This document shows positions 48,818 through 51,275 of a DNA stretch of 64,000 bases, piece after piece. How positions within the stretch are numbered: the first letter of the stretch is position 1; every line of letters begins with the position of its first letter. The notes under the pieces were generated by a model. The model saw nothing but the letters and a program-made list of their open reading frames with translations. It was not told the origin of the DNA and did not search any database. The stretch is taken from contig JAPOQN010000016.1 in NCBI GenBank assembly GCA_026710655.1, positions 1 to 64,000 of the forward strand, in the 5' to 3' direction. Source of the DNA: Chloroflexota bacterium (GTDB lineage Bacteria > Chloroflexota > Dehalococcoidia > Tepidiformales > Tepidiformaceae). The position numbers were made by a program, and so were the translations under genes.

Positions 48818-48902
48818 GGGCCCATGATAGATGGCGCGCCGCCAGCGGGTGGGGCGAGGGAGACGGCGTAATTCCGGCACTGGTTCTGTTAGGGTCGCAA
48901 GC

Positions 48903-51275
48903 GTGATCCAGAAGGGTGCAGGGCGACTCATGGCGACCGTCGCGGTGGCCGCCGTGCTCGGGATGGCCGCAGTCTCCAGCGGCGAGGCACAGAGCGGCGT
49001 GACCGCCAACCTTGAGGTGCGCGTCTGGCAGAACGTGCGGGACGACCTCGACATCAGCATCAGCGCCCGCCCCGAGGGTGGCTCGTGGCGGACCCTTGGA
49101 ACGGTCGGGCTGCCGCTCGACGACGGTGTCAGCGACACGGGCTACCGCTACGGTGACATCGCGCTGGACGTGCCTCTCCGGGCAGGGGGTCCGGCAGCCG
49201 CCATTGAGGTGCGCGTCTGGCAGAACATCGGGAACCCGAGACTGGTCTACATCAGCGCCCGGTACGCTGGAGGCTTGTGGAGCACGCTCGGAACTGTCCG
49301 CCTGCCGATGGAGGAGCTCAGCCTCACGGGCCGCTTCCGCTATTCGGACATCACGCTCGAGGTTCCAATTCCCGAGGGTGATGTCACGACACTGGTCGGT
49401 CGCCAGGGCTTCTGGGGGTTCCAGGATGGCAGCGGCACGTCCGTGCTTTTCGGCGGCAGGGCGGGGGCCGCCCGGCATGTCGCGCTGGCGGCCCACCCGG
49501 ACGGCCGGGTCATCATTGTGGACAACTGGAACAACGCCATTCGCGAACTCTCGACCGATGGCATCGTGACCACGCTCGCGGGCCGTAACGGCTACGGCGA
49601 CAGGGATGGATCGACCTCGGTGGCGCAGTTCCAGGCCCTGGGCGATGTCGACGTCGACGGGGAGGGGAATATCTACATCGCCGACCGGGGCAACGAATTG
49701 ATCCGCAAGATCACGCCCGACGGCGCCGTTTCCACGATTGCGGGTGGGGGAGAAGGGATCGCCGCCGGTCCCGCACTGGAGGCGGAACTCGACCAACCGC
49801 GCGGGGTCGCGCTGGACGGCGCGGGGAACCTGTACATCCTTGAGAAGCACCGAATCCTGCGTCTCGCGACGAGCGGCACGCTCTCGGTGGTCGCGGGCGG
49901 AGGGGGGCGGAGCCAGGTCGATGGTCCGAGGGAGCGGGCCCAGTTCGCCCACCTCCACGACCTCGACATCGACGATGCCGGGAACGTCTACGTGATCGAC
50001 ATCGACGACGGGCAGAACACCGAGTTCGCAGCAATCCGCAAGGTCGATGTGAGTGGCATGGTGACGACCCTTCTCCACAGCAAGCCGCCGAGCCTTGGCG
50101 GGCTGCTGGCCTATCCAAACGGCATTGCGGTAACGGGCGACGGGACCATTTTCATTGCGAACTCGGGGCGCCACCAGATCGTTACGCTCAGCGCCGATGG
50201 CGAGCTGCGGGGGATCGCCGGAACGGGGGCTGCAGGGTCGGCCGACGGACCGGCGGGGGCGGCTACGTTCTACCGACCGAAGTCGCTCGACATCATGCCC
50301 GACGGTTCGCTCGTCGTGTTCGACCAGGACGGCACCGTCATTCGCGCGATCACGCCCGCCGAGGCGGGCTTCCCACCGGGCCCGGTCGCTCTCGCTGAGG
50401 ACACGTCGCCCTCTCGCCTTGAGGGCGTGTCGGTGCGGAAGTACGCCAGCCACCTCGGGCTCGTCCCCATTGACCTGACCCTCGCCGAAGACGACACCCT
50501 CTTCGTCGGGGACAACAGCGATGGCGTGTGGCGCGTCACGCCGGGCCGGAGATTTGCTACCTTCGCGGGCAACAACGGTTCGGGCTTCGTCGACGGTCCC
50601 GCCAGTGAGGCCGAGTTCCGGTCCCCGGAAGGGATCGTCCTCGACTCCGACGGCAACATTCTCCTCGCTGGTTACGGCAACCGGGCCATCCGCCAGATCG
50701 CGCCCGATGGCACAGTCACGACGCTCCACACATTCGGCAAGAACCCCCACCTGCTGGAATACGAGAGCGATGGCGACTTGCTGGTTCTCCTCAAGGGAGG
50801 GATCGGCGGGGACGAGATCGTGCGCATCACCCCCGAGGGCGCCCAATCGAGCGTGGCAGTTCCCCAGTTCGATGCGATCACGGGCATGGGTGTGAGCCCC
50901 GCGGGTGAGATCTGGATCATTGGCACGGACTATCTGGAAGGGACGACCATCATGCGGCGGACCAGCAGTGGCGACTTCGTAACCGTGCTTGAGACCGACC
51001 CGGGGCGGTGGGGAGGTCTGTTCTCCATCCACGTGCGCGGAATCGATTTCTCGTCCGATGGCATGGCCTACGTGACGGACGAGAAGTACGGACGCATCCT
51101 CAGGATCGCCCCCGACGGGACGGTGGCGACGGTGCTCGATCGGGAGGACTTCGGCTCCGCGAACTTCACGCCGCGGGGCCTCGTGGTCACTCCGCGTGGG
51201 CGCCTGCTCGTCACCAGCGGAGGACTGTTCCCCTCGGAGGGGACTATCTGGCAGATCACGCTCCCGGACGAGTAG
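48903..51275 (+). CDS. Secreted NHL-repeat beta-propeller with duplicated N-terminal VRVWQN domain
   Basis: About 790 residues from GTG 48903 (signal peptide MATVAVAAVLGMAAVSSGEAQS). Two tandem copies of a roughly 60-residue unit follow (LEVRVWQNVRDDLDISISARPEGGSWRTLGTVGLPLDD... and IEVRVWQNIGNPRLVYISARYAGGLWSTLGTVRLPM...). The rest is an NHL propeller of more than ten blades (for example GDVDVDGEGNIYIADRGNELIRKITPDGAVSTIAGGG). Such propellers bind proteins or ligands outside the cell. A GTG rather than the distal ATG 48831 is chosen since the upstream part is only basic. It is divergent from the DUF5666-like gene. Confidence 0.85.
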   Translation: MIQKGAGRLMATVAVAAVLGMAAVSSGEAQSGVTANLEVRVWQNVRDDLDISISARPEGGSWRTLGTVGLPLDDGVSDTGYRYGDIALDVPLRAGGPAAAIEVRVWQNIGNPRLVYISARYAGGLWSTLGTVRLPMEELSLTGRFRYSDITLEVPIPEGDVTTLVGRQGFWGFQDGSGTSVLFGGRAGAARHVALAAHPDGRVIIVDNWNNAIRELSTDGIVTTLAGRNGYGDRDGSTSVAQFQALGDVDVDGEGNIYIADRGNELIRKITPDGAVSTIAGGGEGIAAGPALEAELDQPRGVALDGAGNLYILEKHRILRLATSGTLSVVAGGGGRSQVDGPRERAQFAHLHDLDIDDAGNVYVIDIDDGQNTEFAAIRKVDVSGMVTTLLHSKPPSLGGLLAYPNGIAVTGDGTIFIANSGRHQIVTLSADGELRGIAGTGAAGSADGPAGAATFYRPKSLDIMPDGSLVVFDQDGTVIRAITPAEAGFPPGPVALAEDTSPSRLEGVSVRKYASHLGLVPIDLTLAEDDTLFVGDNSDGVWRVTPGRRFATFAGNNGSGFVDGPASEAEFRSPEGIVLDSDGNILLAGYGNRAIRQIAPDGTVTTLHTFGKNPHLLEYESDGDLLVLLKGGIGGDEIVRITPEGAQSSVAVPQFDAITGMGVSPAGEIWIIGTDYLEGTTIMRRTSSGDFVTVLETDPGRWGGLFSIHVRGIDFSSDGMAYVTDEKYGRILRIAPDGTVATVLDREDFGSANFTPRGLVVTPRGRLLVTSGGLFPSEGTIWQITLPDE

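Follow-up and report, generated by a model that had tools for sequence, protein, structure and literature searches.

An apparently undescribed module of often paired units at the start of varied, apparently exported proteins in a lineage of Dehalococcoidia

Background

The ChW repeats (PF07538) of Clostridium acetobutylicum measure about 50 residues, contain a conserved Trp and occur in tandem in many different secreted proteins of one lineage. One protein is annotated as "ChW repeat-containing mannanase ManB" (passages of PMC3044671). The starch-binding CBM25 module is all-beta and sometimes found in tandem; tandem CBM25 has been used for anchoring proteins to starch (passages of PMC5715617), and the binding site includes H26 and W34 (passages of PMC4625611). 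A third point of comparison is provided by the eukaryote-like repeat proteins (ankyrin, LRR, NHL) of sponge symbionts. Most sponge MAGs encode eukaryote-like proteins and few lineages encode secretion systems (passages of PMC8163846), and Ircinia MAGs show an enrichment in NHL proteins (PMC9531527), whose passages on eukaryote-like proteins make no mention of a shared N-terminal module. Cultured Tepidiforma, of the same family as the genome studied here, is described as monoderm with peptidoglycan and an S-layer (passages of PMC10284905).

The window gene and its repeat unit

The window is the whole stretch of DNA that was analysed, 64,000 nucleotides of contig JAPOQN010000016.1 from a bacterium of the Tepidiformaceae (Chloroflexota; assembly GCA_026710655.1). 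It contains a gene for an NHL propeller protein whose features are given in Table 1. The frame opens with an ATG 72 bases upstream of the start assigned in an earlier sequence-only reading of this DNA (48903), and the true start codon may differ. Judged by eye, the protein has a basic start, a hydrophobic core at about residues 34–50 and a possible cleavage site between GEA and QS.

Table 1. Features of the window gene (positions in the window)
Feature	Positions	Strand	Basis
Open frame, 814 residues: signal-peptide-like segment, two units, NHL propeller	48831..51275	+	Translation, Pfam scan
Probable Sec signal peptide, N-terminal segment	48831..48989	+	Sequence; hydrophobicity scan of family
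Unit 1, residues 61–116; nearly invariant W66, S78, R80, W86	49011..49178	+	
Linker between units, 8 residues	49179..49202	+	
Unit 2, residues 125–180; nearly invariant W130, S142, R144, W150	49203..49370	+	
Both units as one predicted eight-stranded all-beta domain	48993..49382	+	Mean pLDDT 94.2, pTM 0.87
NHL / teneurin-like NHL β-propeller passenger, boundary approximate	49383..51272	+	Pfam scan

The earlier reading had proposed two tandem copies of roughly 60 residues in front of an NHL propeller, and both parts of this proposal are borne out. Two units of about 56 residues are present, and a Pfam scan of the window protein assigns the sequence behind them to NHL (PF01436) with 79.7 bits over five stretches (cut-off 20). 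The units exhibit 53% identity over 60 columns (BLASTP, E 5e-19), and their Smith-Waterman score is 144, whereas none of 10,000 shuffles of unit 2 exceeded 50. Among 123 distinct unit rows, which include partial ones and of which 119–121 are filled at the columns reported, conservation is 98% for W6, 94% for S18, 98% for R20, 89% for G24, 97% for W26 and 92% for L34; the conserved Trp, Arg and Gly positions first noticed in the single gene (W6, R20, G24, W26) thus extend to the family. Among named loci, the closest relative of the window gene is L098:2038-4500, which is split into two frames and has a passenger that is 75% identical.

Searches for a known family

The units have no clear counterpart in Pfam, NCBIfam or the PDB, which agrees with the earlier suggestion of an undescribed module, and in the rows shown no Pfam match over cut-off falls on them. 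For the isolated window pair the best rows have E-values of 0.096 (Pfam) and 0.2 (NCBIfam), while 45 units of the same genome reached 0.041 in Pfam and 56 units 0.02 in NCBIfam. PHROGs gave scattered weak rows only (best 0.0013). Sequence profiles against PDB chains (best E 0.41 to nitrile hydratase, 0.099 to an antifreeze-protein repeat, and 0.69) and phmmer against PDB chains (best E 0.19 and 0.45) gave matches that were taken as chance. An established family was rejected for the units since none of the Pfam and NCBIfam rows shown that fall on them lies over a cut-off. The literature covered by titles and abstracts, with most subscription papers outside its scope, holds no description of the module, and the string VRVWQ is absent from it.

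As far as the libraries searched show, the module therefore appears to be a new domain family. By analogy its kind would be a known one, that of a short unit multiplied across a lineage's secreted proteins in the way of clostridial ChW. Like ChW, it is a short tandem repeat with conserved Trp found before varied, apparently secreted proteins. It differs in that the 45 own-genome units gave no ChW row in Pfam at E ≤ 1; a ChW profile search of the own genome was also empty, as it was in the control genomes, and hence does not prove absence.

Predicted structure

An AlphaFold2 prediction of the window pair, made with 28 pairs as the alignment, contains eight strands that fall into two similar sets of four. 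A pTM as high as 0.87 over both units and their linker points to joint packing into one body. Prediction of one copy, which the earlier reading had proposed as a check, was run with 56 rows and gave a pLDDT of 87.9 and a pTM of 0.65 with the last strand unformed; the two predictions used different alignments, and the lost strand may be a modelling effect. The models are suggestive of a single all-beta domain formed by the pair, with the units completing one another.

Neither Foldseek (pair: best E 0.096 at a probability of 0.14; one unit: best E 2.5) nor VIA-align (best Z 4.4 for the pair, 3.1 for one unit) returned a clear solved relative, an outcome compatible with a new as well as with a known fold. 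VIA-align Z-scores below 5 are in the range given by unrelated beta proteins. The top VIA-align row, 5xmz (Z 4.4, rmsd 4.6, 103 aligned), belongs to the fungal secreted β-barrels of the Alt a 1 / PevD1 type (5xmz, 3v0r, 7cwj, 7esw), other members of which score Z 3.7–3.9. These are tied with unrelated rows such as the POMGnT1 stem (Z 3.9) and YEATS (Z 3.6), have 2–8% identity and show no functional link to the module. Among viral models, a 134-residue protein of Serratia phage PS2 was matched with E 3.6e-3 and probability 0.99, but with a TM of 0.38 and an rmsd of 9.5.

Position in the protein and export

Of the 71 distinct proteins whose first unit is nearly complete, 66 have a hydrophobic 12-mer in the 60 residues that precede this unit (median gap 15), as judged by hydrophobicity. 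Three of the other five (L040, L055 and L108) have a hydrophobic segment further upstream, followed by an extra stretch, and the remaining two (L118:3401-4924 and L128:409-3690) lie in broken frames. At the C-terminus, no module frame contains LPxTG in its last 60 residues, and a hydrophobic stretch (KD19 ≥ 1.6) is found in one of the 62 frames with enough sequence behind the units, nine of the counted frames ending at the locus edge with their true C-termini outside the data. The module is thus nearly always the first part of an apparently exported chain, and where the C-terminus lies within the data no further anchor can be seen. The module proteins are probably exported, and a putative surface location is suggested by the signal-peptide-like segments and the types of passenger. 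One-unit proteins often run on into Pro/Thr-rich linkers, which would fit a tag and equally an ordinary extracellular enzyme.

The extra stretch in three of these proteins (L040:3954-5393, L055:5019-5831 and L108:3512-6169) is itself shared. It spans about 90 residues between the signal-like segment and the units and ends in a pattern like G..A..(T/S)G-x-W......(L)D/NL, and a like pattern is present at the C-terminus of L103:3866-4765. Possibly it represents another undescribed extracellular domain.

Passengers of the module

Following the earlier suggestion of a profile search, a profile built from 45 units found 47 matches in the own genome, compared with 37 by protein search, as well as carriers beyond it. 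The own-genome units are spread over 31 open frames, which lie at about 30 places; two units are present in 16 of the frames. Nine of the 30 frames scanned contain a Pfam domain over cut-off: NHL in three, the window gene among them, and RCC1, ankyrin, CAP, alpha-2-macroglobulin (with Big_5 in addition), YscW and trypsin in one each. The other 21 contain none. Ten proteins of related genomes were also chosen for scanning, of which seven have a Pfam domain (LRR in two, trypsin in two, NHL in one, and esterase- or hydrolase-like domains, barely over the cut-off, in two). The passengers tested have no other domain in common, and the module is not specific to NHL propellers. Several passengers belong to the ankyrin, LRR and NHL classes known as eukaryote-like in sponge symbionts.

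Some of these genes have features of their own. L052:4940-5599 encodes a single unit followed by a YscW domain, of the type III secretion lipoprotein chaperone family. Module proteins with alpha-2-macroglobulin are encoded in L046:6099-12476 (by Pfam) and in L117, L119, L120, L122, L123 and L144 (51–66% identical to L046); they occur in all three carrier families and mostly have a one-residue linker between the units. In L099, L100, L101 and L105, module-NHL genes of about 2.4 kb each lie head to tail in arrays of at least two. The one-unit proteins of L031, L033:3353-4840 and L056 have C-terminal Excalibur-like stretches below the Pfam cut-off. Module genes with broken frames occur in L034, L047, L106:1710-5185, L115:3767-6444, L118:2936-4924 and L128:409-3690, and one module match in another genome contains an inner TAG; assembly error, decay or switching may be the source of the frame breaks.

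Evolution of the units

Within the 44 two-unit proteins compared, the two units share 68% of their residues, against 52% between proteins, and where residues are identical their codon is also shared in 63% of cases inside a protein and in 52% between proteins. The combination of 52% residue identity between proteins with only 52% identical codons indicates constraint, by which residues were kept while silent sites drifted. DNA identity of the two units rises to 98% in L103 and 92% in L102, where some fresher homogenisation, by duplication or conversion, appears to occur.

In a tree of 47 pairs, of whose 44 forks 21 are open and whose bootstrap is not settled, passenger types cluster, requiring 13 changes against 26.7 in shuffles. 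Passenger labels were assigned by length and likeness, with NHL, alpha-2-macroglobulin, trypsin and esterase-like types confirmed by BLASTP against a Pfam-scanned member. Five of the seven alpha-2-macroglobulin pairs fall in one supported group, and trypsin needs three changes, no better than shuffled. From this clustering, pairs seem to have been inherited mostly together with their passenger, with some swaps.

Distribution and habitat

All nine genomes of the genus carry the module, with 3 to 47 matches each, and none of the family's 29 other genomes does. Across the class, 19 of 393 genomes are carriers, namely the nine of the genus, six of a second family and four of a third; the distribution there is patchy, with four carriers among the 20 genomes in the family of one of them. 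A sample of 400 genomes of the phylum gave no full match outside the own genome, though the class search has ten carriers in other families, and two partial matches (E 3e-4 and 6e-4) were taken as chance. The phylum and class searches scored 16 candidates per genome, so that their absences are weaker than those at the family level.

A scan of named assemblies found 35 loci in 11 assemblies with 2 to 45 matches each. By bin name, six of the 11 look like sponge MAGs. Two have names of the jk18x series, a name used for Caribbean Ircinia sponge MAGs in PMC9531527 (passages), one of the two being the suspect contig L104 discussed below. Four names start with IRC, COS or APA, initials that fit Ircinia, Coscinoderma and Aplysina, which are among the sponges of PMC8163846 (in the passages available). 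The window genome may be that of a sponge symbiont.

L104 is a 5-kb contig of a bin labelled Gemmatimonadetes (Gemmatimonadota) and carries a module-NHL gene. It exhibits 84% DNA identity over 529 bases to a Chloroflexi locus, its G+C is as in the Chloroflexi loci, and within its labelled family a real match occurs in one of 96 genomes, that of L104 itself. From these three observations a spread to Gemmatimonadota was set aside; misbinning of L104 is likeliest, and recent transfer may be the alternative. Two marginal matches in the labelled family (L154 and L155) were taken as chance. A phage origin was rejected after none of 17 pattern matches in viral contigs proved to encode a relative. A plasmid origin was likewise rejected, as the alignments in the ten rows listed of 26 begin at query residue 171 or beyond and so fall on the propeller.

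Proposed role and alternatives

The reading preferred here, to which a probability of about 40% is given, is that the module acts as an interchangeable tag that retains exported passengers at the bacterial envelope. The two units would together make up a single beta domain at the N-terminus, pseudo-dimeric in that neither unit has its last strand without the other, and this domain would follow the Sec signal peptide. Once exported, the protein would be kept at the envelope by a ligand there that the conserved Trp/Ser/Arg/Trp set binds, a glycan or the S-layer being the likeliest candidates. The passengers retained in this way would be of unrelated structure, among them propellers, ankyrin and LRR repeats, trypsin- and esterase-like enzymes and alpha-2-macroglobulin. 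Proteins with one unit may obtain the missing partner from a second copy. Conservation of W6, S18, R20 and W26 (94–98%) on the only common part found in otherwise unrelated proteins points to a shared ligand, the simplest of which, for a monoderm with peptidoglycan and S-layer like Tepidiforma, would be a part of the envelope. The architecture seen would equally suit freely secreted proteins.

It is also conceivable, if doubtful, that the module binds a glycan of the sponge matrix or mucus or a dissolved polysaccharide, and so holds the proteins on the host or substrate and not on the bacterium. The sponge-like names of six of the 11 carriers would agree with this, as would the resemblance to CBM_25 (PF03423), the best Pfam row for the 28 pairs. 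CBM_25 matches 8 of the 28 (best E 3.1e-5, 24.7 bits) along a strand-hairpin stretch that ends just after W26; W26 may stand where CBM25 has its binding-site W34 (PMC4625611), and CBM25 amylase chains are present among the chance-level PDB rows (2laa, E 1.4). All eight rows, however, score 13.5–24.7 bits and thus fall below the cut-off of 27.3; their best stretches cover 15–29 of 106 profile positions, the score sums two repeats, and CysA_C_terminal matches 10 of the 28 pairs just as weakly (best E 6.9e-4). No CBM_25 over cut-off was found in the nine genus genomes (nor in 14 control genomes), and Foldseek is without a clear solved relative; the CBM25 fold is absent from the structural matches listed for pair and unit, where a missing row does not exclude it. 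CBM25 further differs in its length of about 100 residues, against 56 for the unit, and no amylase is among the identified passengers. CBM_25 is kept as a lead and not as an established family.

A less probable explanation is that the module serves chiefly for dimerisation, with two-unit proteins as built-in dimers, one-unit proteins forming dimers or mixed pairs, and ligand binding secondary. Unit numbers are in keeping with it, as the distinct frames of the own genome and the named loci comprise 47 with two units, 30 with one (some of them cut or broken) and none with three; so are the last strand missing from the single-unit model and the greater likeness of units within a protein. A dimer closed within one chain would nevertheless leave unexplained why the module is retained before so many passengers, and W6, R20 and W26 (97–98%) are conserved above the last strand, which reaches at most 89%.

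Still less likely is a pro-domain or export aid that assists folding or secretion and has no ligand. Such a function would suit a module that nearly always stands at the start of the mature chain, before passengers with no other domain in common, but in three proteins an extra stretch intervenes between the signal-like segment and the units, and plasmid NHL propellers of other bacteria lack the module (in the ten listed rows of 26 mentioned above). An ordinary tandem duplication within one protein, of no wider meaning, is suggested by the near-identical unit DNA of L103 and L102 and is refuted by the spread of the unit over 47 own-genome matches, all nine genus genomes, three families and varied proteins.

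Significance

How sponge symbionts deliver their eukaryote-like proteins to the host is a puzzle, since few of the lineages encode the secretion systems. If the tag keeps exported ankyrin, LRR and NHL proteins at the cell surface, it would offer these symbionts a concrete and testable route. A tentative and rather unlikely extension is that this sponge-associated lineage of Dehalococcoidia uses one common pseudo-dimeric address tag to display an exported arsenal at the symbiont-sponge interface; the arsenal would comprise eukaryote-like repeats, proteases, esterases and protease inhibitors, and no dedicated secretion machine would be needed. Within the own genome, the module marks the roughly 20 frames without a known domain as one set of apparently exported proteins.
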